A DNA stretch of 64,000 bases from Pelagomonas calceolata. Lineage: Eukaryota; Sar; Pelagophyceae; Pelagomonadales; Pelagomonadaceae. The stretch is from the NCBI GenBank assembly GCA_918797485.1, contig CAKKNE010000004.1, forward strand, positions 2,666,001-2,730,000, given 5' to 3'. The translations under genes were made by a program, and so were the position numbers. This document shows positions 5,306 to 61,936 of this stretch, piece after piece (position 1 is the first letter of the stretch; every line of letters starts with the position of its first letter). The notes beneath the pieces were generated by a model. That model was not told where the DNA came from. It saw nothing but the letters and a program-made list of their open reading frames with translations, and did no database searches.

Positions 5306-6028
5306 TCACGGCGGGATCGGTTTCCGCTCCTCGCCGTAGAGCATCGAGTTCATCGAGAGCATCTTCGCCAGGTACTTTTGATGGTACTCTTCCGCTTGCC
5401 AGAAGGGCATCGCGGGTTCAATAGCTGTGTGGCGGCACCACTTCTTGCCGTCCGCAATCAGCTGGGCCTGCATCGTCTCCGCCGCTTCTCGCTGGGCCTC
5501 ATCATGATAAAAGACAGCGGACCGGTACTGGCGCATCGCGATGCCCGGCGTGTGCTCCCTCCAGAACTTCTCGAGGATGTCCTCGTACGTCAGTTCCTCG
5601 TTGAATTCGATCAGGATCGCCTCGGTATGGTCGCCGATGCGCTTATAGGTCGGCTCGAACCTGTGCATAAATCAACTAGTGAGTCGGGTGCGGCCATGTT
5701 GGCTGAAACGAGCGGTAATAGACCACGACGCCACGCCATCGAGCTGGCGTCGCGTCGATGGCGTGCATGGTGGAGACGCGTCGCGACAATTTGATTTGTT
5801 CACTGGCTCGAACAGTTCCCCACCGGTGTACCCCACAAGGGTCTTCTCGACGCCGGGCGTCGTGTCGAAGGACCCCTGCGGGTGCCAGAATCAGCCCATC
5901 GCTAGAGTGGCGACGCGCGGCGGCTGGTTGAGCGTGATCTTCGGCGTGTACAGCGGGCACGGCGTGACCCGTGAGTCCTGTAGAGCGGCCGCGCCGGAGG
6001 CCGCTAGTGCTAAGACTACAGCACGCAT
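5306..6028 (-). CDS. MSRA: Peptide methionine sulfoxide reductase A, selenoprotein
   Basis: Reduces methionine-S-sulfoxide. Exon 1 is 6028-5814 and exon 2 is 5660-5306; joined they give 189 aa with matching phase. The protein opens with a hydrophobic secretory-type leader (MRAVVLALAASGAAA). The family's catalytic GCFW motif reads G-TGA-FWHPQGSFD, with the TGA at codon 46 (5893-5891) where Cys is expected. The downstream blocks VGYTGG, FEPTYK, HTEAI, QYRSAVFYH and EYHQKY are canonical MsrA. With the SECIS at 5233-5294 this is a selenocysteine MsrA. The intron is an introner element whose target duplication supplies the GT. No resolving Cys is seen in the C-terminus. Confidence 0.93.
5661..5805. 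mobile_element. Introner element in MsrA intron
   Basis: A 145-bp element flanked by the 8-bp duplication GCTCGAAC (5653-5660 and 5806-5813). Its ends, CTGTGCATAAATCAA and the complement of CAGTGAACAAATCAA, are imperfect inverted repeats. The interior holds a hairpin of CACGCCATCGA and TCGATGGCGTG. The minus-strand intron spans 5813-5661: the duplication copy GTTCGAGC provides GT and the element end provides CACAG. Confidence 0.9.
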
Positions 6029-6322
6029 CGCTGCGTCTCACTTGCTCAGCCCACGGGTGCTACACGAGAGACTCCGTTGCAGTTATTCACCGATGCCTTC
6101 AGCCCGCGTCGATGGCGTGCAGAGCTCGTGACGCACACCGGAGAGCATAATCCTAGCGTACCGACACACACTAGCATTACAGGCACAACGCACAGCTCCA
6201 AATCGATCGATTAGACACTACACGATGGGCCACAACAACTCATTCGTGCATATCTGACAGCAGGGCACAACGGTAGCAGCGGTTCAGGCTCTGACAGCGC
6301 GCACCAACACTGCCTAGCAGAG

Positions 6323-7201
6323 ATGGCCCAAAGACCAACAAATCGTCCGGCGTGGATGTCCGAGGAAGCCTACGCCGAGGCAATCAAGCGAGTAGAGAGG
6401 CCGCCAGCGCCGGAGCCCGAGACCACGGAGACCGCGCTGCCGCCCGTCAGCACGGCGGCCGCGACGCGCGTCGTTTACATCGAGCGATTTGTGGATCCGC
6501 CGAACCCGTACTTGCCGGCGGAGGAGCGCAATGAATTAGATGTGGCCTATCGGGAACTGGGCGCGCGCTTCGGCTTCGCGCGGCGCGTGGCCGTGTCGCC
6601 GGCGGGCGACGTCGTCTGCGCGTTCGCGGAGCTGGAGGCGGCGGAGCGCTGCGTGCGGGCGCTCCACGGCCGCCGCGTGAAGGGCCGGCAGCTCTGTGCC
6701 GACTTTCTGCGCGAAGATGAGGAAGACGGCCCGCTCCTCGACGATCATGGAGTGCCGACGGCGCCGCCGCGGAAGCCGACGACGGTGCGCGTCGGCAATG
6801 CGTGGGGCGTGGGCGCGGGAGATGAGTTCGTGCGCCGCGCGGCGGACGCGATCGCCGTCGAGTGCTCGCGCTTCGGGCCCCTGCGGCGCGCCGTGGGCGA
6901 GGCCGAGGCCTGCGAGGTCTTGGTGCAATTCTCGTCTTCACTGAGTGCCGGCGAGTGCGCGCGGGAGCTGAGCGGGCTATCCTTCGACGGGCGTCCCTTG
7001 ACCTGCGTCCTCGACGACGACGACGTCGCTGCGGCGCCCGAGCCAACGGAGCTCAAATTCTGGCAACACGATCCCAATCGAAAGCCAAAGTCCCACCGCG
7101 ACCGGCCGCCGACGCCCGTCCCCGAGCGGTCCCGGTCCCGGTCCCGGTCGCGGTCGCCGCCGCAGGGACTCGTCGCTGACTACTCGTCGGACGACGACTG
7201 A
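6323..7201 (+). CDS. RRM and RS-tail RNA-binding protein
   Basis: 292 aa. The N-terminus RPAWMSEEAY is followed by an RRM-like fold (about residues 48-135) with a degenerate second RRM-like segment (about 153-235) in the arrangement of U2AF-large-subunit-type proteins. The C-terminus holds a WQHDPN-type linker and an alternating Arg-Ser run (about residues 271-282), ending in acidic residues. A role in pre-mRNA splicing is likely from the RS tail; the exact orthologue is not certain. It is divergent from MsrA (294-bp spacer) and convergent with PsbU (27-bp spacer). Confidence 0.8.
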   Translation: MAQRPTNRPAWMSEEAYAEAIKRVERPPAPEPETTETALPPVSTAAATRVVYIERFVDPPNPYLPAEERNELDVAYRELGARFGFARRVAVSPAGDVVCAFAELEAAERCVRALHGRRVKGRQLCADFLREDEEDGPLLDDHGVPTAPPRKPTTVRVGNAWGVGAGDEFVRRAADAIAVECSRFGPLRRAVGEAEACEVLVQFSSSLSAGECARELSGLSFDGRPLTCVLDDDDVAAAPEPTELKFWQHDPNRKPKSHRDRPPTPVPERSRSRSRSRSPPQGLVADYSSDDD

Positions 7202-7228
7202 CTAAGTGTTTGTTTGTGTTTTTACCAG

Positions 7229-7667
7229 CTAATTGACCACCAGTCGCGCCTCGTTGCGCTTGATGGCGGCCTTGATGTTGTCGTTGCCCTGGATGATGTC
7301 TTCCGCGTCGTAGAGGTCGCTCACCTTCTTGAAGCGGCCCTCGTAGCGCACGTGCTCGACGATGCGGGACGCGATCGTCGGGTACCTGTGTCATGTCGAA
7401 GGTGTCATGTTGATCGAAGGTGTCGGTGCCACGCCGCATATATCACATGCCCGGGCAGTCCATGTACGCCGGCGCCTGGGACGTGTTGATGTTGACCTTC
7501 GACGTCGGCTGCTCGACGGGCTTGGCCTTGAAGCCGCCCGGTGGGCCCTCGGCGGCCGCGGCGGTCGCGATCGTCGCCGTGCCGGCGGCGAGAGACTGGG
7601 TCCAGGCGCGCCGCGTCGTCGGCGTGAGCGCTGCGGCCGAGGCCACGATGAGGAAGATGCTACGCAT
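7229..7667 (-). CDS. PSBU: PsbU, photosystem II 12-kDa extrinsic protein
   Basis: Thylakoid-lumen subunit that stabilises the oxygen-evolving complex. Exons are 7667-7447 and 7385-7229 (125 aa); the 61-nt intron interrupts the Met codon of CPGMYPTIASRIV. The mature part has VNINTSQAPAYMDCPGM and the helix-hairpin-helix region KAAIKRNEARLVV. The leader is bipartite: a signal-like segment MRSIFLIVASAAA, then a twin-Arg lumen signal TTRRAWTQSLAAG ending in Ala-rich cleavage context. That pattern fits a red-type secondary plastid. The intron has no introner ends. Confidence 0.93.
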
Positions 7668-7963
7668 CACTGCCTGCCTCACGGCTTGCAAGCTTGGGAG
7701 CTCTGTCTTGTGTGAGGTGGGCACGCTTTCGCCGTCCGCCCGCAAGGTTACGCGCTGTATGCGGTTCACAGCGATGCAGCAACGTCCCAGAACGTGGTTT
7801 GCGCCGCTAGCCGCTGAGAACTGGGGATGCAATCCTGCTTTGGCAGAGCCTGTGCCCGGAGAGCCAGACTCAACTCGTCGGCTGCGCGTAGCAATTGATC
7901 ACTCACAGCTCATCACAGGCCCAGTGGTGACCTATCGAAGGGCTGAGGAGAGCTGGGGCATCA

Positions 7964-8965
7964 ATGCTGCTGCTCACGCGCCGCATCACACGCCACCCAG
8001 CAGTGCTTGCAAATGCTGCTCGCAAAACGTCTTGGGCGGCACCCGAGGCACCCTCGTGGTTGAGGAGAGTAGAACACTGGCTCCGTCCACCAGCGCCAAG
8101 CGGTGACCCATTGCAGCTTCTGCCGTGGGAATTGACGTCGCCCGCGGCGCTCGAGGTCGGCAGCGATTCGGCGCGCGACGCCGACTTGCTCGCGTATGCG
8201 GGCGTCGTCGTGCGACGGAACGCAGTCTGTCGCGACGCCGTCGCTGTCGCTCGGACGAGAGCGGAGGAGCTCGCGGCCGAGGCGACGCGTCGGGCGACTG
8301 CGAGGGGCGCCGACGCCGGCGACGCTTCGGCCGGGTTTCACTTCGCCGACGCGTCGCAGCGCGGGCCGTTCCGGCTCGACCTGAGGCTGGGCGGAGCATT
8401 GGAAGCGCCGCCGTTCGATTTGCCGCTTGACGCGATATGGCCACAGGTCCGAGCAGCGCTCGGCGAGGATGCCGTATTGAGGAGGGGCCTCGTCGTCGGC
8501 CTGCCGGGCGCCAGCGACCAAGCGTACCACGCCGACGCGCCGAGGGTTCCGCCTGAAGTCTGGGCCGAACACGAGAGTGCCACCCGAACGCAGCCGGCCC
8601 ATTCGCTGGTCGTGTTCCTGCCGCTCTGCGACCTGAACGAGGCGAACGGCCCGACGGCCTTCCTGCCCGGCTCGCACCAGCGCTGGACGAGCGATGCGTT
8701 AGAGGCCGAGGCGGACGCGCCCGGCTCCTCTACGGCCGGCGCGCCGGCCATCCTCGACGTGGACGCCGGCGACGCGATCATCTTCGACTCTCGGACGCAG
8801 CACGCGGGCGGCGCGAACCGCTCGAAACACGCGCGGCCGATCCTGTACCTCGTCTTCGCGCGGCCGTGGTTCGACGAGAAACTGCACCGGCGGCTCGTCG
8901 GGGGTGCCGGCGGCGGCGACGGCGTGCAACGGTTGTTTCCGGAGTTTTCTGCGTCTGGTGCGTGA
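7964..8965 (+). CDS. PhyH-like Fe(II)/2-oxoglutarate dioxygenase
   Basis: 333 aa. The family's iron ligands are visible: YHAD (about residue 188) and TQHAG (about residue 279), with a downstream Arg (ARPILYLVF) for 2-oxoglutarate. GPTAFLPGSHQRW is the typical phytanoyl-CoA dioxygenase signature. The N-terminus is basic and could be an organelle leader. The substrate cannot be told from sequence. It diverges from PsbU across 296 bp. Confidence 0.85.
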   Translation: MLLLTRRITRHPAVLANAARKTSWAAPEAPSWLRRVEHWLRPPAPSGDPLQLLPWELTSPAALEVGSDSARDADLLAYAGVVVRRNAVCRDAVAVARTRAEELAAEATRRATARGADAGDASAGFHFADASQRGPFRLDLRLGGALEAPPFDLPLDAIWPQVRAALGEDAVLRRGLVVGLPGASDQAYHADAPRVPPEVWAEHESATRTQPAHSLVVFLPLCDLNEANGPTAFLPGSHQRWTSDALEAEADAPGSSTAGAPAILDVDAGDAIIFDSRTQHAGGANRSKHARPILYLVFARPWFDEKLHRRLVGGAGGGDGVQRLFPEFSASGA

Positions 8966-9369
8966 GTTGTTGTTTAGATTGGTACAAATGGTGTGTCTGT
9001 CTTTCTGTGACGGTGCTAGGACTCGTGGGCGGAGCTCCAAATAAAACCGGCTAGTGTCTTACAGGTCGCTAGAAAAATCGGAGACGAGATTTGCGGTGCG
9101 CGCGAGGGAGTGGCCGCTACAGCATCTGGTTGCACAAGAGCTACTTGCCAGCCTCTCAGAGCAGCGCAACCAATCGCGAGCAGCTGTGAGACAGCGTAGG
9201 CGACGCACAGCCACCGGGTCACAAGGCCAGGATTTATCCGGCGCCATATATTGCCGCGCAGCCTCGGACACGCCCGGCAGGCGTCGTCTGCGCATAGGGC
9301 CAGCGCTGCCACGACCGCGCGGGTGTCGAAAAACCGTCGCCGCCGAACGAAAAGACAACGCCGGCCGCG
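8966..9369. other. Intergenic region with one CTAG motif
   Basis: 404 bp between two plus-strand genes. The only structured signal I see is the CTAG pair at 9051-9072; no credible ORF or RNA. Confidence 0.5.
9051..9072. promoter_or_regulatory. CTAG-N14-CTAG upstream motif
   Basis: Full-consensus copy with inner TGTCTTACAGG, 298 bp upstream of the gene at 9370. Confidence 0.5.
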
Positions 9370-10671
9370 ATGTCCGAGTTCGACGAGGAGGACCCCGAAA
9401 TCGCCGCCGCGTCGGCGCAGGGCGGCTACACGAATGATGAAAACGACAACGAGGGCTTCGTGAGCTTGGACGCGGTGAAGAAGCACTACCGGGGCGCCGA
9501 CGACGACGACGAGGAGTCGGACGATGGGTTGGACATCACTGAAAAATTAAGGAAGGAGATGACGTGTGCTGTGTGTTTATCTTTATTCCGCGATCCTATT
9601 GCATTAAGGTGCGGCCACGCGTACTGTCGAGCTTGTGCCGCTACGTTGAGACTACGTAGCGAACCGAAGCGCGCCCGGTGCCCCGCGTGCCGAGCGCCTT
9701 TACGTAAGGGTGAAGATGAAGAAACACCGACGTCCATACCTCTGAGAAATGCATGTAGACTCCTAAGAACGGCAGAAGAACGGGAAGCCGACGACTCCAT
9801 CCAGCGCGCGAGAGCCGCGGAGGAAGCGGCGGAAGAAAGACGGCGGGAAATCGACGACGCGTTAGGTGAGTGCCTCGTCGCGGCGTCGGCGAACGACCCG
9901 CCCGTCGGGTGGCGGCGCATCCAATTCGGGAAACGATTAGCTGTTTGTACTAGAAATGTCCGAAGAGAGGGCACGTCGCATCGCATCGCTCTAGCATTAA
10001 GGCTGGATCGGTGGGACATCGACCATGATTCAGCGAACTTTGGGGTCTGCGTCCTGAAGGCCGAGGACGACGAGGACACTCTGTCAGAGCCGTTGCCCGT
10101 GTGTCTCTCGACTACGGGAGACGACGACTGCCTGATCGCGCGGGACCACGCCGATCGGAGCGTGGTGCTCGAAGGCGAAAATGCGCCCTCGTTCGGGGGC
10201 CCCTGGGCGCAGACCGCGGCGTTGGTGCGGGGCGAGGCCTGGTTCGGCGATGTTGATGTGTGGGGCGGCGGCGAGCCCTGGGAGAGCGTCGGCGACTGGT
10301 TAGTGTTGGATTTGGTGGACGCGGAGTGCGGGTTGGAGTTGAGGATAGCCGTGCACCGCTCGCTGGACGCACAGGCGCCAGATGAGAGCGATGTGGAGTC
10401 GGCCGGGTCGCGGAGCTCGCGCTACGAGTCCGACGACGGGTTCATCGTGGCGAGCGACGAGGAGGACGCCGTCGAGGCGTCGGCGGACGCGGAGTTCTCT
10501 GACGAAGAGCCGCCGGCGCGCTTAACGGGCCACATGAGCCGCGAGGCGGCGCGGGCGGCTGTCGACTCGCCTTCCTTCTTAAACGGCCTCGGGGATGCGG
10601 CCGGCGCGTCGGACGACTCGGACGAGGACGAGGAGGAGGAGCCGATCCGGCGGAAGCGGCCTAGGCGATAA
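9370..10671 (+). CDS. RING-finger protein with acidic tail
   Basis: 433 aa. A C3HC4 RING (about residues 65-104) reads CAVCLSLFRDPIALRCGHAY with later CPAC, typical of E3 ubiquitin ligases. A helical charged linker follows, then a Trp-rich beta-type domain (residues about 175-330) of no family I recognise, then a long Asp/Glu/Ser tail ending in a basic cluster that may be a nuclear signal. It converges on the next gene with only 9 bp between stops. Confidence 0.8.
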   Translation: MSEFDEEDPEIAAASAQGGYTNDENDNEGFVSLDAVKKHYRGADDDDEESDDGLDITEKLRKEMTCAVCLSLFRDPIALRCGHAYCRACAATLRLRSEPKRARCPACRAPLRKGEDEETPTSIPLRNACRLLRTAEEREADDSIQRARAAEEAAEERRREIDDALGECLVAASANDPPVGWRRIQFGKRLAVCTRNVRREGTSHRIALALRLDRWDIDHDSANFGVCVLKAEDDEDTLSEPLPVCLSTTGDDDCLIARDHADRSVVLEGENAPSFGGPWAQTAALVRGEAWFGDVDVWGGGEPWESVGDWLVLDLVDAECGLELRIAVHRSLDAQAPDESDVESAGSRSSRYESDDGFIVASDEEDAVEASADAEFSDEEPPARLTGHMSREAARAAVDSPSFLNGLGDAAGASDDSDEDEEEEPIRRKRPRR

Positions 10672-10680
10672 CCTTACTCA

Positions 10681-14803: not shown

Positions 14804-14816
14804 CTTTAAGTTTGGT

Positions 14817-14836
14817 CTAGCGGCATAAGACACTAG
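14817..14836. promoter_or_regulatory. CTAG-N12-CTAG upstream motif
   Basis: Reverse orientation (inner ATAAGACA), 167 bp upstream of 15003. Confidence 0.45.
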
Positions 14837-16699: not shown

Positions 16700-17081
16700 C
16701 TAGTCTAAGTCGACCGTCGTCCACTCGCGCACGTGCGAGCCGGCGACGACGTGCGGGCCGTACGGGTCTTTCGCTTTGAACTCGTCCGCGGCCTCGCGGT
16801 CGGTGAAAACAAACATGGCGCCGTCGACGGGATCAGTGAACGCACCCGCGGACAGGACGCGGCCCTCGGCCGCAAACTCCTTGATGAGACCGAGGTGGCC
16901 CGCTCTGTACGGGTCGCGCTTCTCGAGCACGTCCCTGTGCGGATATCAACCAGTGACTCCCACGCCATCGAGCAGACGCAATCACGGGGCCAACATCGCG
17001 TCGATGGCGTGTAGCGCGTTGCAATTTCTACGCAGCGCGAGACGGAGTGTAGTCGTAGAATAACACGAAGCGCGAGACCAT
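16700..17081 (-). CDS. YCII-family small protein
   Basis: 90 aa from exons 17081-17044 and 16934-16700, whose phases agree. The spliced N-terminus MVSRFVLFYDYTPDVLEKR runs into HLGLIKEFAAEGRVLSAGAF, the typical YCII ferredoxin-like fold, with the family His (HLG) and Asp (FTDP) residues. The biochemical role of most YCII proteins is unclear. Its single intron is an introner element lacking a recognisable duplication. Confidence 0.88.
16935..17035. mobile_element. Introner element in YCII intron
   Basis: 101 bp beginning CTGTGCGGATATCAA and ending AATTTCTACGCAG, degenerate inverted ends, with the internal CACGCCATCGA and TCGATGGCGTG arms. The intron is 17043-16935. The two 8-bp flanks do not match, so this copy is older or rearranged. 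Confidence 0.75.
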
Positions 17082-23540: not shown

Positions 23541-24542
23541 TCAGGGCGCGCCGAGCGACGGCCCGACGCGCGCGATATTCGTCGGCCCCGCCTGGTTCGT
23601 CGGCCACGCAATGATGTCCTGGATCTGTACGTGTGCTGGGCGCGTCGCCGCATAGATAATTTGATCGGCGATGTCGTCCGCGACCATAGGTACCAAATTA
23701 TCATACACACTCTTGGCCTTGGCCGCCGCGTTGTCCGAGGCTTCGAACCGTACTAAGCTAAATTCAGTTTCCGCGAATCCTGGAGAAATACAGGTGACCC
23801 GAATAGGCGTGCCGACGAGGTCGTGCCTTGCTGCGGACGTGAACGCCGTGACGGCTGACTTGGAGGCACAGTAGCCACTCCCACCACCATACGCGTAGTG
23901 GCCCGCAATACTACCAACATTGATGACGTGGCCCCTTCCTCTCTGTTTCATGCCCTTCGTGAATAATGTAGTAGCTATTATCAGCGCGGTCACGTTCGTC
24001 GTCATCATCCGCACGATGTCGGACGTCACGTTTTCCTCGACGCTGTTCTTGCCTAGAGCTAGGCCCGCGTTGTTGACCAGGATGTCCACGTTCCGGAACT
24101 GCTCGGGAAGCAATTGGTCCATCCTTTCGACTTTTTCGATGTCCATCATGTCCAGCACGAGGCAGAAAACTTCTGTGCCGTATTTAGCTTTCAGTTCACT
24201 AGCTAAAGCTTCCAAGCGGTCGCCGCGGCGCGCCACTATGATCAATTTGCAGCCGAGCTCGGCGAAGCGCCACGCGGTGGCCTTGCCTGTGTGGAAATCA
24301 AAATTCACGGCGCGTCCGTGCCAAATCTTCGCGTCGACCTCCACGCCATCGACGCGACGCCTGCTCGATGGCGTGGCAGTGCCGGTTCCTCACCGCTCGA
24401 CGGAGCCAGCACGGCAGCGCACCCGACGCAGTGGTTGATTTCCACACAGGGCCTTGCCGAATCCGCTCGACGCTCCCGTTACCAACGCGGTCCAGCCCTT
24501 TATGTCCTGGGGCGTGTAGAGGGCCGACGGGTTGCTGGACAT
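23541..24542 (-). CDS. Short-chain dehydrogenase (YdfG-like)
   Basis: NAD(P)H-dependent oxidoreductase. Exon 1 is 24542-24458 and exon 2 is 24286-23541. The spliced protein reads TGASSGFGKATAWRF (cofactor loop), then NNAGLALG, and catalytic GYCASK with an upstream Ser (NVGSIAG), closest to 3-hydroxy-acid dehydrogenases. The frame stays open to an upstream ATG at 24689; that longer form starts MRLSLLGLGAF and contains HVAAFSAAR, like a plastid signal-cleavage motif. The intron is an introner and uses a GC donor (GCAAGG). Confidence 0.88.
24287..24449. mobile_element. Introner element, intact ends, in SDR intron
   Basis: 163 bp with perfect 15-bp inverted ends (CTGTGTGGAAATCAA) and a perfect 8-bp duplication GGCCTTGC (24279-24286 and 24450-24457). 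The interior hairpin arms CACGCCATCGA and TCGATGGCGTG are present. On the minus strand the intron is 24457-24287, beginning GCAAGGCC and ending CACACAG: a GC-AG intron. Confidence 0.95.
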
Positions 24543-25986: not shown

Positions 25987-26312
25987 CGTGCGGCGTCTCG
26001 GCTGCCCTGGGCAAACTAGCGTCGATGGCGCCTCGCGAAGTGCTTTTTGGGGCTGCCCCGGCGGACGACGCGTCGACGGCGTCCCGCGGTGCTCTTCGGG
26101 GAACCTTGCGGTCTCCAGGGGTGTCACAGACCGAAGCCCAGCGCCCCCGAGCACACAACCGCTTGGCTAGAGTCTTACGGGCCGCTAGCTGCCTCACCGA
26201 GTGCTTTACGGGTGCCATAGCTCGCGCACCCGCGGTTTCAAGCGTCGCTCACGACCGCCCGGAAGCGTCTCGGGGCAGCCCTTCGGACGAGGAACACGTG
26301 GAGGCTGCCCAT
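25987..26312. other. Divergent promoter region with CTAG motif
   Basis: 326 bp between divergent starts, with the CTAG pair centrally placed at 26167-26188. Open frames running through it lack coding features. Confidence 0.5.
26167..26188. promoter_or_regulatory. CTAG-N14-CTAG upstream motif
   Basis: Inner AGTCTTACGGGCCG, 125 bp from the start at 26313 and 181 bp from the start at 25986. Confidence 0.5.
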
Positions 26313-28001: not shown

Positions 28002-28067
28002 TTGTTCTTCACGCCATCGACGCGACGCGGGGTCATGTACTAAGTGTATTTTTTACGACGAAACCTA

Positions 28068-38035: not shown

Positions 38036-41000
38036 TTATGATGCGCCCCCGAAGTGCACATTTGACGCATCGGAAGTAGAGAGCAGCGGCACGCCGAGGG
38101 CCTGGAGCTTCTTAAGAGCCGTCGCCTCCGCCTTCCGCGCGGCGGACTTGTCCTTTACAGTAACCACTAAGGCGTCGCCGATATCATACGTCCGCCCGTG
38201 CTTCTTCAGGCGGTCGCGCACGGAGTCCGTCTCGCCCACATATAAACCGTCGGACGTAGAAAAGGCGTAGACGCACGACGTACCTATCAATCGGGGCGGC
38301 GGCGCTTTATCTCTAGGTAAGGTTTCCGGTACCAACCCTTGGTCCGAGAGGGCGTCAAAGGCCGAAGCAAGCAGGTCCACCTCATCCTGTTGGACAGAGG
38401 GCACGTCCCTTCCAAGCGTAAGCGCCGCCCGCTCCACGATCCTGGAAGGGACCTCCGCAGCGACAGCAGCATCTAACGCGAGAGAGTCGACACAAACACC
38501 CTCGTCACAACTGTGGTTGCCTCCCATCCTCCACTTCTTCACATCATCTCTAGAATCCTCCTCCAGGATCTCATGTAGATGCGTCGCGAAGACGCCCCGC
38601 ATCTTTCTATCCGTAAGTTCATCTAGAACAGCACCGCCGATGGCGGCACCTTCGGTAGAAGACGTCCCGCGGCCCAATTCATCGACCAACACCAATGAAT
38701 CAGGTGAACATTCCCGGAAGAGCTGCGCCACGGCGTCCATTTCTCGCTCGAAAGAACTTTTCCCGTAGAGGGGCGCGTCGCCCGTGGCGTGTCGCAGTAG
38801 AATGCCGTCCCAGTGCGGCACGGTACCTTCACTGATCGGTGCACATAGACCCGACGCTCCCAATAAAGCTGCGGCGGCCGTACTTCGTAACAGTGTACTT
38901 TTGCCGGACGCGTTCGGTCCTGTTAAAAAGGCCATTTGTCCACTTGCTAGGGAGACGTCGTTCGGGACTGACGAACCACGGTCGAGCCAGAAGGGCGTCA
39001 GGCCCTTTAGCGTCAGAGTCTTTCCCGAAGCAGGTAAAGACCATCCTTTCTCTCGAGAAGCTTCGGCGTGGTCCAGAGCCGCTGCGCCACATTCACACAC
39101 GGATATACAGGCCACGGCCGTGTCCAAATGTTGAGAGTAGACGGTCTCGCTCAATTCACGTAGAGACGCCCTTACCACAAGTGACGCGTCGCTACAAGCA
39201 GCGCAGTACGCGTCATTGGCGTCGAGGGCTCGCTGCGACGTCCTTCGTCGTGGCAGCGGCTGGCGGAACCGATCTCTAGGTGCTACTTCATCACCAGAAG
39301 GCGCCCCGCGCAGGCAGACGACGTTGTTCGCCACCTGTGTGGAAATCAAAATTTTACGGCGCGTTCCTCCACGCCATCGACGCGACGCCTGCTCGATGGC
39401 GTGACGATGCGTTCCTCACCGCTAGGCCGAGACGCACATGTTGATTTCCACACAGTTCGCCACATCATACAAGACGTCGTCGCCGTCCGGGAATTCCGCG
39501 ACGGCATTCTCGAGTTCCGTCAGACAAGCATCGACCCGAGCGTAGGCGTCCCTAACCTCAGGACGGTGGTCCCGCAGTACCACGCCTCTAAAGACCTCGT
39601 TTCTCTCAATGAACGCGGCAGGGAGTCTATCAGAAGATGAAACGGCGTCGTCCTGGTCGATACTTACCACTGATGAAATGACACCTTCCAAACGCGCCGC
39701 AGCATCTACGAGATCGTCTCCCTCCAACGAGAACACCCCGCCCGCCTCGCTCGCGTCAAGTAACTCGAGCAAAGGTCTAGAAATGGACGAAGGCGCCTCA
39801 CTAATCGCCTGGCGGCATGCGACAGATGCCCTGTGGGCGTCGCGAAACAGTAACGCATTCGCCTCCTTCTCCGCTAACAAACGTACTAGTTTCTGCCTCG
39901 GGAGATTCGGCGCATCATCCAAAGGTAAAGGCGGGCACGCCTCATCTAATAATGCTGATAGTAGCGACCGCATCGCTGTTGCTGGTTGCTCGGACGGTGG
40001 CGCTAACAACCATCTCCGTAGAAATCGCTGCGAGGCCGCGCGAGCACCTCTAGATGGTAGTAACCTAGGAACTAATGCAGGCACGAGCTCGTCGTCAGCC
40101 AAGCCGACGTCCCTAGCTGTGGAAGCAAACAAAGGCCGCTGTGTTCTTGGAGTTGATACCCGTACTTCCTCTGCAAATGACAAAGGGTCCTCGACGCACA
40201 AGACGGATCGAGCCACCTCCTCGGCGAATAAACGTACGCGACCTTCCGTAGTACCGGGGTCCTCCAATCGCACGGCCCGGTCGTCATCGAGTCGCTCCCG
40301 GTCATCTACTAAAGCTAGAGCGTTCCGCTTCGCCGCGTTCCTCCTATTAATCTCTTGAGCTTTCGACCCACTAGCTTTACAATCGAAATAGAAGGCCGGC
40401 GCCGCGGCACCTCCACGAGCACTTACGGCGGCTCGACACCCGTCGGGCGTCAATGAATCGTAGACGCAAGCAGTCCTCGCGTCGACATCCAAACATATCA
40501 CCGACGCACCTGATTCACCAACAGCAGAAGCGACGAACTGCGGCCCCTCGCAGCGCCACTCGAGATCATTTCTACTGAGAGCCTGGTTCTGCACATATGT
40601 GGAAGCGCCCGGTGCTACCACTTGTGCTAAGTACCTTTCTTTCTTGCGACGAGGATCAGCACAGAACCGTTCTTCATAGACCGCCACGGTTAAGCCGTTT
40701 CGGGTCAAGCCATCGAGCGTCTGCTGCAAATTCCGCCAGGGACACCCCGCTCTTACTTTGTCGCCCATCGGATTTAAACCGCAGTGCTCCACGAGCAACG
40801 TAGCGTCGACGCCCCACGCTTCGTAGAACTCGCCGACGCGCACGAGTAAAACTTTCGTGGGGTGCTCGAGTTTCCACTCTAAGGTCTCCAGTAGGAGTGT
40901 TTTCCTTCCATTTGCAGGGGGTTTATCTAGACTGTCGTGGGGGAAGCCGAGGGCGTTCGTTGCTAAGCGGTCGCTCAGGGCCTGGGCCGCGGGCCTTCGG

Positions 41001-41621: not shown

Positions 41622-42663
41622 CTAGAGCGAGTCGTACCGCCGCAGCGGCTCCACGGGCAGCGGCTTGGACGACTCGGCGACCTGCGCGTCGAGCTTCTCC
41701 ACGAGCTTCACCAGCTGGTCGTGGCCACCCAATGCCGCAATAGCGGACGCGATGTCGCCCTTGATCGCCGCGAGGGCCGCGCGCGTCTTCTCGAAACTGC
41801 CGACGGACTCCATGAACTCCACGGCGTGCTTTTTCACATCAATATTCTCGGTCTTCTGCTTCAGGATGTTTAGTAACCGGGTATCGTCCGGTCTCGCCCT
41901 TATAGCGTGCAGGATCGGATAACTAAACTTTCCTTCAGTCAAATCCTCGCAGTAGCTCTTGCTGAGCGCGTACTCGTCGCTCTTGAGGTTCACGAGGTCG
42001 TCCCTTATTTGGAAGTAGAGCGCTAATTGATCGACTAGTTCGCGGAACTCGCTCTTGTCTCGTGCCGAGAACGCGGCCATGAGGCCGACGGCCAGCCGAA
42101 ACAACCCGCCGGTCTTGTCGAGCACCATGCTGTAGTACTCTTTTTCTGAAGGGACCTTCTGCGTGTCGCGCCACACGATGTCCTGGCCCTGGCCCCTATG
42201 TAAATTGAGCAGCTCTTCCACAAAGACCGACAGCGCCTCCGGCGAGCCTAATCTATGACATTCTTCCAAGGCTACAAAGTACGCGTAGTTCGCCGCGTTC
42301 AGCGTGTAGGGCACGCCGAAGATGGCGTGGGCCACGGGCTTGCCCCGTCTCAGTTGCGACCCGTCCTCGATGTCGTCGACGAGCAAAGAGGCGTTGTGCA
42401 GGCGCGAGATGATGGACTTGATTTGCGTCACTTTCTCGGGCGGGATTTTGAGCCACACGTTGAACGCGTCGATCAGGGCGCCTCGGACGTCCTTGCCGGG
42501 CGTCTCGCCTGCGTGAGTCGGGTGGTCGCGTCGCGTCGGTGGCGTGCCATGATCCAGCGGATGCGCGGCGCGACAATTGATTCATGCACTGCGTCTCGCT
42601 GATGTAGGCGAAGGGCTCCAGGATCGATGCGTCGACGGCGTGGCTGACCGGCGGCGAGGTCAT
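41622..42663 (-). CDS. GGPPS: Geranylgeranyl diphosphate synthase
   Basis: Makes C20 prenyl diphosphate. Exons 42663-42600 and 42508-41622 give 316 aa. First Asp-rich motif is LLVDDIEDGSQLRRGKP, second is FQIRDDLVNLKSDE, and GQGQDIVWRD, CEDLTEGKFSYP are diagnostic of the eukaryotic type III (GGPS1/BTS1) enzyme rather than plastid GGPPS. No leader is visible, so cytosolic. The intron begins with GCGAGACG, a GC donor from an introner duplication; splicing restores EPFAYISETPGKDVRG. Confidence 0.94.
42509..42591. mobile_element. Introner element in GGPPS intron
   Basis: 83 bp, shortened, ends CTGCGTGAGTCGGG and TTGATTCATGCACTG, flanked by CGTCTCGC (42501-42508, 42592-42599). The minus-strand intron 42599-42509 starts with GC and ends ACGCAG. 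Confidence 0.9.
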
Positions 42664-48775: not shown

Positions 48776-48823
48776 CGACGTCCCTGGATCCTGTGATAAG
48801 ACCCCTCAAAATAATTAAGACTA

Positions 48824-51800
48824 CTAGGCGAGGATCGCGTCCACGTCGTGCGTCGCCCAGGCCGGCACCTCGCCCGCCTCGCCGTGGTTCTTGCCAGGCG
48901 CGTCGCCGTTCGTCCGCAAACAGACGCGCACGCGTCGGTGATGTAATTCGAGGATGTAGTAGTAGAGCTCCATGTCCCGCTTGTTGATGTCGTACAATAG
49001 CTCCAAATTGTGCGGCGACAGGGGCGCGGACTTCGATTTGCCGCCCTTGACCCTATCTTTTGGTACCGATTGATGCAAAGCGGGGAAATCCGTCTCGTCG
49101 GGATCGCGACCTGTGCGTAAATCAACCAGTGAGTTAGGTTATCGGTCGCGGGGACGACGTCGCGTCGATGGCGTAGGGTTCCCCGAAATGGATTTCCACA
49201 CAGACGGCGACTGGGATCCCCTTCAAAAAAGTCCGGCAGCAACAACCGAAACAACTGCGCCGTGTTTTCTAGGTCAGTCAAAATGCCAACATGAGCGTAG
49301 CGCTCCCGGACATTACGCTTCGCTATCTGCAGGGCCAGCTCCGGCCTGGAAGGGTCCCTACATTCCGGCCCGTGGCCGCAGAACCATCTCACCGTATAGT
49401 CGTGGCACTCGTCCGCGAGGAGCCGCATGGACTCGTTGTAGGATAACCTTTGAAAAATATCCCACTCCGTATCAGTAGCTCCTTCTTTTCGTTTTGGCAC
49501 GGGAAAGTCCTGGTACCTATGCTTCTCCGTCCTCGGATCCCAATTCCTAAAATCGCATCTACCGCCATCTAAACAAGCATCAAAATCCACCGCCGGGATT
49601 CGTTTCTTGTAGAACGCCTCGTAGTTGTACCTTGATATACATCTATCAATAGGATCCCGGATCAAGTTCACCAAGGCAACACCATCCGCATGTGTGGTCT
49701 CCACTCCTTCCGGGTAGTAGACGTGGCGCTGCGTCACGAACCGGGATTGCTTCCCATAATTTGCGAGGCGCGCCAAATATTTTTTCAGATCAGGAGCGTC
49801 GAGCCAGCGATGTTTGGCAACGTGGGGCGTCCACCACGTCACATCTGTAGAAGGTAGGTGGAACTTGTGCTTCGCCTGTGTGGTAATCAAAATTTCACGC
49901 CTGCTCGATGGCGTGGCGGCGTCGGTTCATCACCGCTCGACGGGGCCAGCACGGCCGCGTCATTGCCGAGAAATGGCGTAGTGCACCCGACACACTGGTT
50001 GATTTCCACACAGCGCAGAACCGTCTCGTTCAATTGGCCGCTCATCCACGACATGATCGACGCCGAACCAGATTTCGGGATGCGGTTATACAAGACGCCG
50101 CGGGGATGCTTCGGTTCACACAAAGGGTGCCACTTCGGCGCGTGGGACGACGGGTAGGCCCTCCTCAGCCTCTTCCTCTCGGCACTCGTCAAGACCTTGT
50201 GGACGCGCTTCGGCGGCTTCGGGGGTTTGGTATCGGGCGCCTTTTGTTGGGCGAGGTGGGCTCTTACTTTAGCCTTGTAGCGCTCCAGGACCTGCGACGT
50301 CGACGCGTCGCGGCGACGGCGTGGGGGGGCATCCACGAGACCTGATACGCCATCGACGCGACGCGCCGTCGAAGGCAGTGGACGCCGGACGCGTACCGAT
50401 AGCTCCGTCGAAGACAATGGCGGCGGCGTCGGCGGGTGCTCCTCCTCGACGACGACGGGCTTCACGTCGCACTTTCGCGTTTTCACGCGCGTCCGAGGGA
50501 TGATGCGATTCGAAGGGCACGTCGACCACGCCTCCAGGAAGTTGCAGAGGGCCTCCCACGTCTTTTTTGGAGGCGCCGTGTCCAGATCTTGTAGAACGAG
50601 CAATCGATGCGCCTCGTTTCTAGATGCGAAGAAGGCCACTATATCTGTATTTCGCTGTTCATACGCCTGAATCCACGCCTCCCGATCCAGCGGACCGAGG
50701 CCGTTCGCTCTCTCGTAGGAAGTACGCTGCTTGACTGTAGAACAAGAGAGCTCCCGCTCGACATCGTCCCACCACGCCGATGAATCTCGCACGGTCAGCA
50801 CGAAGCGCGCCCGCGGGTAACGCATAGCCAACTCCTCATACAACGACCCGGCGTTCCAGGGCGCGTCGTAGAACGTCCTGTAGTCATGAGCTATTTCTAG
50901 AGCTTTGGTACTGTCTAAGCTTCTAGCATAATCATCAAACGCAGTCAAGCGGGCTTTGACGTCGCACCTCGGCTCCAGTTTCAACGCATCCAGCATCATC
51001 GCTATGCGCTCACCGCCCGCTTTGGAAGCCGACAGTGCAAAAGTTTTGAAGGACAGGTCGTGTTTTTGGGGTTTGTGGACTAACGCACAGCCCGCGTCAC
51101 AAGACACGACATCGGAAATCTTCGAGCGGCAGAACAAATCCGAAGCGAGGTCCGCATGGTTTAAGGATACACTTTCAACGGCTCTCCTGAGAGCGATGGT
51201 CAACGACGGCTGGTCCCGCGATTCGCCAGTACGCTCGTACAACCTCATGAACGCGTCCACATAGAACCCCAGGAATTGCTGAGTACGAGGCGACGTACTA
51301 TCGAGAACGATCAGCGCGGAGTTGTGTTCTAGTTTGAGATGGTCTCGATGTGATTCCTGGCCGTCGAATTTATTGGTCAGTGCGACATCCACGCCGTTGC
51401 CCACTAAGAGTAATCTCTCTAGGAACGAAGCAGAACAAGGTCTGCTATCAAAGTCCATGAAGATCGTTGTACTGAAAGGACTTGAGGCCATCGCGTGGAC
51501 CTTGACCAACTTGGCTCTTGTTTTCAGCGGTAGCCTTTTGGTTGTAACGAGGGACCAGTCCTCGTACAGTAAAATGCGATCAAAAAAATTCGATAGGGTC
51601 TCCTTTTCTGTACTCGTAAGTTCATTGACCAGGACGCGTTCCGTGAAGAGTGCGAAGCCGTGCTTTCTCACTGACGCGTGGGCGCCTCGCGCGTCGGCGA
51701 TCCCTAATTGTTTGAGGTAGTCCACCGTCGGTAAAACCTCCCTTCTCACAAATTCCGGCGAGCCGGCCGCCGCGTACATGACACCAACGCCCTCTCTATG

Positions 51801-56658: not shown

Positions 56659-56937
56659 TTTTTTGAAGTCCGTCTGCGCCCTGTCCCTCCCCTTGTCCCC
56701 AGTCCCCACGTGTAAGGTTGTCGCGACGGCACTCGTCTTTTTTGCACCTCGTCCTCTTGCGAGGCATCATTGGTGTGGATGATGTATAGATATCCCTCCG
56801 CGTACAGCATGCGCGGGCCGCGGCTAAAAAAGAAATCGGGCAGCCTCTCGATCGGTGCGCTGCAAGCTTTTGTCCTCCTTTAGAAACGGCAGGGCACCCA
56901 CCAGTTGCTGCCCACCGCAGCGAACGCCTCGCACCAA

Positions 56938-57393
56938 ATGGATCCCAACGCCCAGCTGCTTCCACAACCGGGCTTTGCCCAGCCCTACACAGTGCATGTG
57001 GCAGGTCCCAATGATCCCCATGCCCAGCCCCAAATGGGCTTGGCCAACCTCGCCGCCTTGGCCGCGGCCGCGGTCGATCTTGCGCCGGAGCCTGCTGCCG
57101 ATCCTGCGCAGGCCAGGCCCGCCGCCTTCTTCGAGCTCCAGAAACTCCAGAAAGAGATCGCGGCCGTGTATACAACACCCGGCTACGGCAAGAACACCCG
57201 GATTGACGACGTGAGATCCATTATAGAGAAATACGGGTTTACAAATCGTGGTAAATCTTGGAAACGAGACGGGATAAGACTCTATCCACCTGAACATTTC
57301 CCCCCATTGCGGGGAAGTGCCATGCGCTCTTTTAATGGAATCAAGACCTACCTCGATTCCGCGCTCGCCGCAGCCTCGCCGAGCCACCCCTAG
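56938..57393 (+). CDS. Small Ala/Pro-rich protein, unknown
   Basis: 151 aa from the ATG at 56938. A Gln/Pro/Ala-rich N-terminus precedes a more conserved-looking charged part (FELQKLQKEIAAVY, IDDVRSIIEKYGFTNRGKSW). No family recognised. Codon use fits the neighbours, so it is probably real. Confidence 0.55.
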   Translation: MDPNAQLLPQPGFAQPYTVHVAGPNDPHAQPQMGLANLAALAAAAVDLAPEPAADPAQARPAAFFELQKLQKEIAAVYTTPGYGKNTRIDDVRSIIEKYGFTNRGKSWKRDGIRLYPPEHFPPLRGSAMRSFNGIKTYLDSALAAASPSHP

Positions 57394-57571
57394 TTTCAAC
57401 ACGCACGCAACGCGGAGGGTCGGCCGCGTTGTGAAGTGGCAAGAGCTCCGACGTTCGCCGGAACTGATGTGAACACGGCATGCTCTCGGCACGGCCTCTA
57501 GGCGCGGCCCCTTCCCCGCCCTCGCTAATGTTGTCATGTTAATCACTACCAATAGTATCTATGAGTATTAC

Positions 57572-59189
57572 TCACTTCCCCCCCTTCGCCTCGAGCTCGC
57601 TCATCTGCTTCATCATGTTCATGAGGTTTTGCGCCCCGCCCATCTGCTGCAACATGCGCGGGTCCATGGTCTTGTGGAGCTGCTGGAGCACTTGATTGGG
57701 GTTGCGCTGCATCTGCTTGACCTGTGCGTAAATCAACCAGTGAGTCGGGTGCACGACGCGACCGTGCTGACCGAATCGAGCGGTGAGAGAGCCGGCGTCG
57801 CGTCGATGGCGTGGAGGGCATGGAGACGCGTCGCGACGATTTGATTGATGCACCGTGCTTGACCATCTGTTCATCCCCTCCTTTCATCAGGCCCGACTTG
57901 CCCATTTTGGTTACTACTCCCTCGAACTGCTTGTGGCACCGCAGCAACATCTGCACTTCCATGGGGTGCGTCCCGGAACCGCGCGCGACGCGGTCGACGC
58001 GAGAAGGCGCCCGATTGAGATCAACTCGACCATCCAACTCGTCGTCCGTCATGCTATCCATCATGTACATGAACCGCTTCAACCGATTGCCGCCCTCGTC
58101 GCCTTCCCCGCCCATCTGCGGGATGCCGGGGATCATGGCCATGACTTTTGAGAGGGGGCCGAGCTTCATGACGTTCTCGAACTGCTCGTACATGTCGCGC
58201 AGCGTGAACTCGCCCTTGCTGAACTTCTCCATCATCTCGTCGTTTTTATCGTCGCCGATCGTATCTTTTATTTGTTTGACTAAGGTACTCATGTCGCCCA
58301 TGCCCAACAATCGCGACACGAAACTGCGCGCGACGAAGGGCTCGAAATCATCAAAATGTTCTCCCGAGCCTAGGAACAGTATCGGAGCGCCCGTCGCCGC
58401 GACCGCGGACAGGGCACCGCCGCCCTTCGCGTGCCCATCCAATTTCGTGACCACAACTGAGCCAATATCTATCGCCTCATGAAACGACGTCGCCTGTTCA
58501 TGCACGGCCTGGCCCTGCGTCGCATCCAGCACAAAGACCACGTTATCCGGCTCGATCGCGACTCTAATTTCTTGCATCTCCTCGAACAAGGCCGCCTCCT
58601 GGCGGTGTCGTCCCGACGTGTCGACGATGATGACCTCGTACTTCTCCTTGCGGAACTGCGCCACGCCTTCCGCCGCTATTGCTACAGGGTCGGCTTCGGT
58701 GTAAGACCCGTAGAAGGGACATCTCAACTTAGTAGCGTTCTGCTTCAATTGATCATAAGCTCCAGCACGAAAGGTATCCGCGCAGACCATGCAGCACTTG
58801 AAGCCTTTGCGCTGGTAATAGTTCGCAAATTTCGCGATTGTCGTCGTTTTTCCAGCACCCTGCAGTCCCACGAACATGATGACGTTCGGCTTGCCCTTCT
58901 TGACCTCATGTGGTGTTACTCCTGGATCTACTATGTTAACTAATTCGTCTACTACGGCTCTTTGTATCAGTTTTCTCCTATTTGCCCCAGCAACTTCCTC
59001 CTCGAGCGCAGCGCGCGTCTTGATGGCCTTCCTCAGTTGGCCGACGACTCTCACATTCACGTCGGCCTCCAACAAAGCGGCAGCGATGTCCTTTAACATC
59101 TTATCCAGCACTTCCTCGGAGATGACCGTCACGGACTGCATCTTCTGGAGCGCCGCCGTGAGCTTGCCGCCGAGCTCCTGGAGGACCAT
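57572..59189 (-). CDS. SRP54: Signal recognition particle 54-kDa subunit
   Basis: Exons 59189-57864 and 57721-57572 give 491 aa. It binds signal sequences and targets ribosomes to the ER. NG domain motifs: FVGLQGAGKTTTIAKFA (G1), VDTSGRH (G3), TKLDGHAKGG (G4). The Met-rich M domain is split by the introner and ends MLQQMGGAQNLMNMMKQM. This is the cytosolic, eukaryotic form (DPGVTPHEVKKGKPNVIMF), not plastid cpSRP54. Confidence 0.97.
57722..57855. mobile_element. Introner element in SRP54 intron
   Basis: 134 bp, ends CTGTGCGTAAATCAACC and GATTGATGCACCG, with perfect duplication TGCTTGAC (57714-57721, 57856-57863). The minus-strand intron starts GTCAAGCA and ends GCACAG, restoring EQM/VKQMQ. 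Confidence 0.94.
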
Positions 59190-59599
59190 GGTTGCGGTAG
59201 CGCGGCGGCGGCGTTATATCGCTGCGGTTTCGTTTCGCCAGGCGCTTTTGGCTTGCTTGGTTGCGGTGCTGCTGTCTGGCCCGCGGGGCAATCAGGGATC
59301 GCTGTCGTGGCCGCAACGTTGACTCGCCAGCACCTGGGGGCTATACAGTGGCCCTTGCTTGCTGTGCGAGACGTGTGCGGCGAGCTACAGCCGAGAGCCG
59401 AGGCGCAAGCAGCGGCTAGCATCCATGTGCGCTAGCTAAGCAGGCAAGCGCGCGGTACTGGCGCGTACGAGTGCCCGTCAGCCGCGCAAATTAGCCCTTA
59501 ATACTATATTCGAGGCCGACGGCCAGCGCTGCAACGCAAGCGCAGCGCAGTCCGCAGCACAGGCTCCACAAGCAAGCCTGCTTCCACAGCAGCCTCACC
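59190..59599. other. Divergent intergenic region
   Basis: 410 bp between SRP54 and aminopeptidase P. A CTAGC is present but not paired. No ORF or RNA supported. Confidence 0.45.
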
Positions 59600-61936
59600 A
59601 TGTCCGACGTGCCGGGTGCCTTCGCCGCGATGGCGCTCCAGCAGCAACAACCACTGGACAACGCCGTCGACGCGTCATCAAGACCGGAAGATTTATCATG
59701 CCCGTGCTGCTTCCGCCCCGGAAAGCTCTGCGACTCCTTCTCGCCGGAAGAAGCGCCCATGAAAATTAGAGGATTACGCGTCCTGATGGCCTCGCACGGC
59801 CTCGACGCTTACATCGTACCGAGCGGCGACGCCCACTCCTCAGAATACGTCGCGCCCTGCGACGAGCGGCGGGCCTGGCTCACGGGCTTTACGGGATCTG
59901 CTGGTACTGCTATTGTATCAATGAAAGAGGCGGCGCTGTGGACCGACGGAAGGTACTTCAACCAAGCGTCCACACAACTAGAAGGCTCGCCCTTCACACT
60001 GATGCGGCAGCACGAGCCGGGTGTACTGGACATGCCTGAATGGTGTCTTCAACAGGGTTCGAAGATCGGCATTTGTGGCGGTCTGTGTACGCTGCAGTTC
60101 TCCCAAAACTTCCGGGAGAAGGGTTTGGAGCTGGTACCGATCGCTACGGATTTCGTGGACGTGATCTGGGGCAGTCGCAGACCGAAGGTGCCCCGTAACC
60201 CGTGTCTGGAGCAGCCTCTCGCATTGACTGGTGAATCTGTGAAGAGCAAGTTGGAGAGAGTCAAGAAGGAGCTCAATGGTTCTGCGTTAGTCTTAAATGC
60301 CCTAGATCAGATCTGCTGGCTCACGAATTTACGAGGGTGCGACGTGGAATGCAACCCGGTCTTCTTCGCGTACGCCGTCGTGACGGACGAGCTCACGTTG
60401 TATTTGAGGTGTTTGGATCGGGAGCTATGTGGTAACGGCCTGGAGCAGCACGAATCAGATGAACGTATTGCGGTCTTGAAAGCGACGCTACTAGAACATT
60501 TCAGGAGCGAAGGTCTAGCTGCCAATCTGTTGCCTTACTCATCTTTCGACGCAGCGGAATGTGCCCAGCGATGTAGCGGTAGGAAAGTAGCCCTCGAGAA
60601 GGCGACATCTACGCTAGCGATGGCCGCGGCCATTCCTGAAGAACGTAGAGTGTTGGTGGACTGCTCGCCCGTCGAAATCTTCAAGGCCGTGAAGAACGAC
60701 GTCGAGATCGCGGGATTACGGAAGGCTGGGAGACGGGACTGCGCCGCGCTCGTCGGGTTCTACGGCTGGCTCGAGACGCGGCTGGGCCGCGTGGGCGGCG
60801 GCGTGCAAATTTCGGGCGCCTTCCCGTGACTGCGTCTGCTCGACGGCGTGAAGGTCGAACCACTGGTTGATTTCCACGCAACGAGAGCGTGTGTCGGGTC
60901 GCGGCGATGGCGTAGGGGTGGCGCCACACGCCATCGACGCGACCGCACCCCCGCACGCCATCGACGCGACGCCTGCTCGATGGCGTCTGACTGGTCGATG
61001 TCCGCGCAGGTCGACGAGTGCCAAGCGTGCGACGAAATTATGAGAAGAAGGCGCATGATGGGCGGCCCCCTCTACAAAGGTGATAGTTTTGACACCATTA
61101 GTAGCGTCGGTGCGAACGCGTCGATCATCCACTACAAACCTACACCTAATGATTGTGCGACCATAACAAACAAGGACGTCTACCTCTGCGACACCGGTGG
61201 TCAGTATGGAGACGGTACCACAGATATCACGAGGACGAATCATTTTGGGAAACCGTCCGAGGATGAAAGGAGGTGCTACACGCGAGTACTCCAGGGCCAC
61301 ATAGGGATGGCTCGAGCTGTTTTCCCCGAGGGCACTCCCGGGGTCATGTTCGACGCTCTCGCTCGAGCACCGTTGTGGCGAGATGGATTAAACTATTTAC
61401 ATGGCACGGGCCACGGCATGGGGAGTTACCTGAACGTCCACGAGGGCCCGTTCGGCGTCGGCGGCGGGGCGGTAACGGCAGATAAGCAGTTCGCCTTTCA
61501 CGCCGCGAAGCTGAGGTATCTGAATGAAATAAGGAGGGGCCACTACGTCAGTGACGAGCCGGGCTTCTACCAAGATGGCTCATTTGGGTTCCGCATCGAG
61601 TCGGACCTGGTCGCCGTGGTGGCGGAGACGAAGTACGCGTACGGTACGAGAGCTTGGCTCAAGTTCGAGTACCTGACGCCCTTGCCCTTTTCTCGGTCGC
61701 TGACGGACCCTTCTCTGTTACTCGAGGACGAAATACAGTGGATCGACGCCTTCCATTCTCAATGTTGGGCGACGGTGGCGCCGCTGTTGACTTCCAGTAA
61801 TTTGGATGATGCGCAGGACGCGGCTCGCGCGCGCCAGTGGCTCTGGCGCGAGACGCGGCCGCTGTCGGAGGAGGCGTGCCCGCCGGTGCCGCCCGCGATC
61901 GATCCCTCGAAGTGCCACAGCATCCTGGACTTCTAG
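59600..61936 (+). CDS. Xaa-Pro aminopeptidase (aminopeptidase P)
   Basis: Exons 59600-60802 and 61010-61936 give 709 aa. It removes the N-terminal residue before Pro. The N-domain starts MKIRGLRVLMASHGLDAYIV; the pita-bread domain has DTGGQYGDGTTDITRT (two metal Asp), GTGHGMGSYLNVHEGP (His), DEPGFY (Glu) and RIESDLV (Glu). It is the cytosolic XPNPEP1 type, with a 53-residue Cys-containing N-terminal extension and an extra stretch before DEPGFY. The intron is a composite of introner fragments. Confidence 0.94.
60803..61009. mobile_element. Composite introner fragments forming the aminopeptidase P intron
   Basis: 207-nt GT-AG intron. It contains one introner right end (CACTGGTTGATTTCCACGCA, 60870-60889) followed by a second element-like segment with two CACGCCATCGACGCGAC motifs and an end GGTCGATGTCCGCGCAG. 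No 8-bp duplication is seen. Reads as at least two insertions or a rearranged copy. Confidence 0.75.

Follow-up and report, generated by a model that had tools for sequence, protein, structure and literature searches.

A 64,000-nucleotide stretch of the genome of the pelagophyte alga Pelagomonas calceolata (GenBank assembly GCA_918797485.1, contig CAKKNE010000004.1, positions 2,666,001 to 2,730,000; hereafter the window, with positions counted from its first nucleotide) raises the question of whether a set of short, similar sequences interrupting its genes are introners, that is, mobile elements that create introns where they insert. The original prediction, made from the letters of the window, had proposed eight such elements in seven genes. 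We consider it highly probable (about 0.95) that they are indeed introners, namely non-autonomous transposons with terminal inverted repeats (TIRs) that bring their own 3' splice site and take the 5' site from the duplicated target. The splicing tests described below used genomic sequence only, and splicing itself is a prediction throughout.

The genome searched comprised 32,445,274 bases in 8 contigs, and the G+C content of the window is 62.5%; the published genome of P. calceolata RCC100 is described as 32.4 Mb in six nuclear contigs, with contigs 7 and 8 being organellar and a G+C content of 63.6% (PMC9481584). An unselected sample of 264 kb, free of bias towards intact ends, was made up of the window, 100 kb of contig 2 and 100 kb of contig 3, while a contig-1 sample of 60 loci was picked by the presence of an exact end and is skewed towards intact ends. 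Altogether, 83 copies were parsed: the unselected sample yielded 19, and the contig-1 sample yielded 64, which came from 56 of its 60 loci; the other four loci (L036, L052, L071, and L086) gave no parsed element. The coding strand was assigned by codon usage trained on 107 long open reading frames (ORFs), with the element itself unused, and was clear for 73 of the 83 copies; the 10 unclear copies were excluded from the tests in which n is 73. Two window elements, at 16935 and 42509, were missed by the automatic parser and treated by hand.

The genome-wide search with the 15-bp end, which the original prediction had put forward as one of its checks, revealed 790 + 772 = 1,562 exact ends, against 0 + 0 for the reversed 15-mer that served as control. 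With up to two mismatches allowed, 1,653 + 1,597 = 3,250 ends were found, compared to 14 + 8 = 22 in the control, and about half of the recognised ends (1,562/3,250) are thus exact. In the 264 kb, a finder of paired ends detected 19 elements and none with the reversed 15-mer or with each of 20 shuffled 15-mers. A chance origin of the shared ends is excluded. These counts point to a family of roughly 1,600 two-ended copies, or more if many copies are single-ended.

The parsed copies are 60–213 bp long, with a mode at 203 bp (n = 83). The full-length ends read CTGTGTGGAAATCAA...TTGATTTCCACACAG, with the terminal motif CNGTGTGGAAATCAA, and the consensus consists of 15-bp TIRs and an inner inverted repeat, CCACGCCATCGA.../...TCGATGGCGTGG. 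Target-site duplications (TSDs) of 8 bp, matching at 7–8 of 8 positions, flank 42 of the 56 clear-strand copies with near-perfect TIRs (0–1 changes in 30), and the duplicated sequences are locus-specific. Short length, 15-bp TIRs, an 8-bp TSD, and no room for a transposase gene characterise these copies as non-autonomous TIR elements, or miniature inverted-repeat transposable elements (MITEs). End-to-end identity among 17 copies of 198–206 bp ranged from 77 to 97%, with a median of 91%.

This similarity could be sought in old ordinary introns that were never inserted and whose motifs resemble each other by convergence or through paralogy of the genes, and the introns of the window, being short and located in conserved genes, would fit such a history. 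However, convergence does not provide for 17 full-length copies so alike from end to end, each with an 8-bp duplication of its own locus, and paralogy should extend into the exons. When 165 flanks were compared, each up to 140 bp long and excluding the octamer, alignments between separate places never exceeded 44 bp (E ≤ 1e-3), and the longer flank matches came only from exon shared by neighbouring copies. The flanks being dissimilar, the shared sequence is the element and does not reflect paralogous genes, and we give old introns almost no credence. What is seen instead is many near-identical predicted introns at unrelated positions, with the similarity stopping at the intron, as is expected of introners.

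The consensus intron RNA of 211 nt, built with an arbitrary octamer, is predicted to fold end to end in either orientation (−101.6 kcal/mol in one and −95.4 kcal/mol in the other). Compared with 200 shuffled sequences, the folds of copy L089 (z = −4.43, calculated with the octamer from the downstream side in place of the upstream one) and of the window element at 39335 (z = −4.16) were more stable than all of them; for the decayed element at 5661, the fold was not unusual (z = −1.71). We make no claim that splicing requires the hairpin. An Rfam search of the window gave no match.

The relation of the elements to the genes in which they lie was read from the clear-strand copies. The first two bases of the upstream octamer, read on the coding strand, are GT in 53 copies, GC in 17 and another dinucleotide in 3, so that G followed by a pyrimidine (GY) is found in 70 of 73, compared with a share of 17.3% among coding-strand dinucleotides. 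Between GT and GC, the former is over-used with an odds ratio of 7.5. At the 3' end on the coding strand, the terminal CAG of the element is present in all 73 copies, and the outer five TIR positions there are unchanged; the CTG at the 5' end of the element is kept in 58. Genome-wide, GY at position −8 was detected at 987 of the 1,562 exact ends, a purine followed by C (RC) at position −1 at 1,002, and both at 494, so that 1,495 ends (95.7%) satisfy the GY rule on one strand or both, against a background of 31.6%. Removing 8 bp plus the element length L keeps the reading frame (modulo 3) in 69 of 73 copies, whereas one third is expected by chance. The frame was kept in 47/48 copies with a TSD of 7–8/8, in 13/14 with 5–6/8, and in 9/11 with 1–4/8; in the copies with a clean TSD, this test shows that an exon was interrupted and that no other frame shift took place, which alone is no proof of splicing. 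The predicted introns fall into phases 0, 1 and 2 in 31, 15 and 23 cases, and 28, 17 and 23 would be expected from the positions of GY within codons (p = 0.76). These counts of GY, CAG and frame describe insertions into coding exons bounded by an element and a target duplication, as introners would be.

We propose the following mechanism. A transposase making an 8-bp staggered cut would move the 203-bp non-autonomous TIR elements. Read outwards, both ends finish in CACAG, and, because the ends are inverted repeats, a 3' splice site would be available in either orientation. The upstream copy of the duplicated 8 bp would provide the 5' splice site if its coding-strand start is GT or, less well, GC; the spliceosome would then remove this copy together with the element, leaving one copy of the target and an exactly restored exon. 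Insertions without GY on the coding strand are rare, presumably being unspliced and hence purged. Three parts of this model are inferred: that the elements are in fact spliced out, that the GY rule stems from purging and not from targeting, and that a transposase mobilises the elements in trans.

The same ends and duplications would be seen if the copies were ordinary, unspliced MITEs whose transposase preferred GY...RC targets, the match to splice sites being a coincidence. A preference of this kind is visible in part: RC is enriched at the far end of the octamer about 1.4- to 1.9-fold. Nevertheless, the coding strand is invisible to a transposase, yet in 70 of 73 copies GY lies on the side that splicing on the coding strand would require, fixation of CAG is limited to the 3' end, and each gene of the window, conserved ones included, would meet a stop inside the element or a frame shift if the element were not removed. 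Targeting as the whole explanation is therefore regarded as very improbable, and the introner reading is retained.

Orientation relative to the gene could be called for 47 copies clear in both respects, of which 19 are forward and 28 reverse. It bears on spread at the RNA level, in which spliced introns enter new mRNAs by reverse splicing and are then copied back, a route proposed for fungal introners in PMC9860276. Such spread would explain why 73 of the 83 copies lie in coding-looking DNA, but ORFs of at least 150 codons cover about 92% of the sampled DNA (264 kb) anyway. Copies spread in this way should also share one orientation and lack TSDs, whereas TSDs, inverted-repeat ends and both orientations are found here, and we consider reverse splicing extremely improbable as the source of this family. 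Insertion as a DNA element with subsequent splicing is again the preferred reading.

Several observations weigh against this reading or limit it. Three of the 73 clear copies lack GY, starting with TT, TG and GA, and four are out of frame after removal (C3s 80045; L037:589, with a TSD of 8/8; L038:434; and L046:275). Among the exact ends, 67 of 1,562 fit the GY rule on neither strand. Some copies with near-perfect TIRs have no TSD. No autonomous element with introner ends was found in the genome, where transposases split by introns or very divergent ones could escape detection. Moreover, RC is over-represented at the distal end of the octamer (494/1,495 versus a background of 17.5%, and 18/73 in the sample), which would correspond to symmetric targeting of about 1.4- to 1.9-fold. 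Purging may thus not be the whole story, and the transposase may favour certain targets to some degree; the rest of the strand-specific GY excess is taken as the result of selection.

Of the 73 clear copies, 14 carry a change at position 2 of the 5' TIR, against 1, 0, and 0 copies at positions 1, 3, and 5 (C, G, and G). The changes at position 2 often occur in otherwise perfect ends, some of them beside perfect TSDs (for example, L032:386, L035:464, L075:414, and L088:452). Its 3' counterpart, the A of AG, is never changed (5' versus 3', Fisher p = 6e-5). No overall excess of changes in the 5' over the 3' TIR was detected (26 versus 19 copies, p = 0.37), and the difference is confined to position 2. 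We attribute this 5'/3' difference to splicing. That position 2 changes more often than the positions beside it does not follow from splicing; the transposase may require C-N-G-N-G, which is the consensus of hAT ends, or the unpaired acceptor A may aid splicing. An 8-bp TSD together with C-N-G-N-G at the 5' end resembles hAT ends, a likeness that is suggestive only.

In the window, all eight predicted elements are present, at 5661, 16935, 24287, 39335, 42509, 49111, 49876 and 57722, and their measured lengths of 145, 101, 163, 121, 83, 93, 138 and 134 bp, in this order, agree with the predicted range of 83–163 bp. They lie in seven genes, as predicted, since those at 49111 and 49876 share one sulfotransferase-like gene; all the genes are on the minus strand. 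The predicted tally of duplications, five perfect and one of 6/8, was likewise recovered: the perfect ones are at 5661, 24287, 39335, 42509, and 57722, the imperfect one is at 49111, and no TSD is recognisable at 16935 (1/8) or 49876 (3/8). The predicted sharing of 15-bp ends, degenerate in some copies, holds with a qualification: the left end is exact at 24287 and 39335, carries 1–3 mismatches in five elements, and is mostly lost at 42509. The inner hairpin, which had been ascribed to the elements in general, has both 11-bp arms exact in only four of them (5661, 16935, 24287, and 39335), and a single arm survives in each of the others: it is exact at 49876 and 57722, whereas at 42509 and 49111 it has one mismatch. 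A 5' splice site supplied by the duplication, said to apply in each case, can be read in six of the eight; at 16935 and 49876, GT still stands 8 bp upstream despite the lack of a recognisable duplication. The introner interpretation and its geometry were upheld by the strand-specific GY, by CAG only at the host-gene 3' end, and by the continuity of the frame.

The predicted spliced products were compared with known proteins, and alignments span the joins of six of the eight window introns, five of them by Pfam matches and one by a solved homologue. The element at 5661–5805 (minus strand), with decayed ends and a TSD of 8/8 (GCTCGAAC), interrupts a gene for the peptide methionine sulfoxide reductase MsrA, with a predicted GT-AG intron at 5661–5813; the PF01625 match (E = 4.7e-29) spans the join, and the alignment with the MsrA chain 4w8c is ungapped there. 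At 16935–17035 (minus strand), an old element without a recognisable TSD, recognised by its end CTGTGCGGATATCAA and two exact hairpin arms, lies in a YCII-domain gene (predicted intron 16935–17043, GT-AG), and PF03795 matches across the join (E = 6.9e-7). Perfect 15-bp TIRs and a TSD of 8/8 (GGCCTTGC) mark the element at 24287–24449 (minus strand) in a short-chain dehydrogenase gene. Excision of its predicted GC-AG intron (24287–24457) would restore the glycine-rich TGASSGFGKATA motif, and the PF00106 match (E = 1.7e-50) runs across the join, with no gap there relative to 3rku.

The element at 39335–39455 (minus strand), in a MutS-family gene, also has perfect TIRs and a TSD of 8/8 (TTCGCCAC), and its predicted intron is 39335–39463 (GT-AG). 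All 300 tested codons are open in the spliced frame; in a Pfam search of the spliced protein, MutS_V matched only downstream, and no match spanned the join. In a polyprenyl synthetase gene, the element at 42509–42591 (minus strand) has lost most of its left TIR but retains a TSD of 8/8 (CGTCTCGC); the predicted intron is 42509–42599 (GC-AG), and the PF00348 match (E = 1.5e-69) begins 7 residues before the join and continues across it.

The downstream one of the two elements in the sulfotransferase-like gene, at 49111–49203 on the minus coding strand (predicted intron 49111–49211, GT-AG), leaves a coherent frame with its TSD of 6/8, and a Pfam search of the spliced piece found no domain. The other one, at 49876–50013 (minus strand; predicted intron 49876–50021, GT-AG), has near-perfect TIRs with 1 + 0 mismatches between unrelated octamers, 3/8 alike; its spliced frame is open for 300 codons, and PF03567 matches across the join (E = 4e-5). 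Finally, the decayed element at 57722–57855 (minus strand), with a TSD of 8/8 (TGCTTGAC), lies in an SRP54 gene (predicted intron 57722–57863, GT-AG). The spliced protein aligned with the SRP54 chain 2j37 over 342 residues; the alignment crosses the join, close to which it has gaps of one and two residues.

Two further decayed and possibly compound pieces were found by blastn of family copies against the window, at 60806–60880 (E = 1e-11) and 60920–61009 (E = 4e-13), and several copies of the hairpin arm occur among these adjacent pieces (60806–61009). Solitary stretches resembling the interior of the element, without recognised ends, lie at 28002–28028, 50306–50366, and 62526–62565.

The pairing of near-perfect TIRs with unrelated octamers is not limited to 49876. 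In seven of the 56 clear-strand copies with such TIRs, the flanking octamers are only 2–4/8 alike: window 49876–50013, position 26075 of the contig-3 sample (L015:6075), L038:434, L044:410, L053:436, L072:313, and L087:439. GY is present at the 5' copy in 6/7, and the frame is kept in 6/7. GY is also found in 6/7 at the exonic copy, where it is unneeded for splicing (17% expected, p = 1.6e-4). Drift that erased the octamers while sparing the TIRs is most unlikely. One could hypothesise, though we consider it doubtful, that these introner-born introns were overwritten in place, which might proceed by gene conversion of old sites by young copies or by recombination fusing two introners of one gene. 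If this is true, introner families renew their own introns, and TIR similarity does not date intron gain.

A profile search with PF05699 identified two hAT elements in the genome, which have open frames, matched ends, and 8-bp TSDs. One is on contig C4 (L023:3549-7199; TIR CAGGGCAGCAGAAG, 14/14 alike; TSD TTGCTCGC) and the other on contig C5 (L024:3021-5889; TIR CTAGGTTGCCATTA, 13/14 alike; TSD ACACTCGG); the open frames of L023 and L024 have 714 and 832 codons. The PF05699 matches are weak, both being above the cut-off in the genome scan and scoring 22.3 and 18.8 bits on re-search, with a cut-off of 21.4. Both were rejected as drivers of the introners, their ends being different from introner ends. 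A hAT protein search also yielded a remnant near C3:5199540 (L090, C3:5196501-5202000), an N-terminal fragment with a stop and an L024-like TIR at L090:3386; being of the L024 type and not of the introner type, it was likewise rejected. At C1:5413081-5413257, a weak match to a hAT protein (25% identity, E = 0.05) lies in a 490-codon open frame.

Searches of the genome with PF10551, PF12762, and PF13359 (MULE, IS1595/Merlin, and PIF/Harbinger) found no match, and some of 14 control genomes were positive; PF21787 (P-type) and PF18758 (KDZ) also gave no genome match, but the controls were negative as well, and all these searches may overlook genes divided by introns. Two ends that face each other 3.4 kb apart, at C1:549074-552510, were rejected as the borders of a long element: the right one belongs to a separate 71-bp element with a TSD of 8/8, the left one is only weakly paired, and the interval contains an Mpv17 gene. 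A 607-codon frame without a Pfam match lies between facing introner ends at L046:584-2407 (minus strand; C1, about 549.4–551.2 kb). Viruses as carriers were rejected as well: the TIR 18-mer occurs once in each of 5 viral contigs, unaccompanied by a second end facing it, which we read as chance, and both the right-end 21-mer and the hairpin 20-mer were without a match in the viral contigs.

Introners of this kind have precedents. Those of Aureococcus anophagefferens are said to have been described by Huff, Zilberman and Roy in 2016 as short non-autonomous TIR transposons in a pelagophyte alga; reportedly, they carry one splice site and co-opt the other from the duplicated target, and their phase bias tracks the availability of splice-site sequence. 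The Pelagomonas family resembles them in these respects, and is described here with a 203-bp full-length form and the TIRs given above. With hAT transposons it shares the 8-bp TSD, and the two hAT elements of the genome have other ends.

Gozashti et al. 2022 (PMC9860276) show an introner of an Aureococcus sp. whose TSD is likewise 8 bp long; unlike the Pelagomonas family, it brings the two splice sites itself and lengthens the transcript by 12 bp. The string 'Pelago' is absent from the main text of that paper. In P. calceolata itself, a peak of intron lengths at about 210 bp was likened to Introner Elements by Guerin et al. 2022 (PMC9481584). The 203-bp mode and the 8-bp copy add up to a full-length predicted intron of 203 + 8 = 211 bp, which matches that peak. 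Introners with such a mechanism are thus already known, and the P. calceolata paper already points to them; its passages considered here give the length peak only, and the TIRs, the TSD and the splice rule come from the present analysis. The titles and abstracts searched do not describe the ends or the rules of this family, and we do not claim that the family is unpublished.

With annotated introns numbering about 7,500 (16,667 × 0.45; figures from passages of PMC9481584), the family may, as a rough estimate, supply about a fifth of the introns of P. calceolata. It shows the splicing rules of introners unusually clearly and offers a natural experiment on intron birth, with well over 1,000 copies in which both target copies are often kept, so that the filter acting on new introns is directly readable. 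Through this filter, GT is kept about 7.5 times more readily than GC and other starts only rarely, while the phases follow the availability of GY. If insertion is near random, most insertions into coding sequence have been lost.

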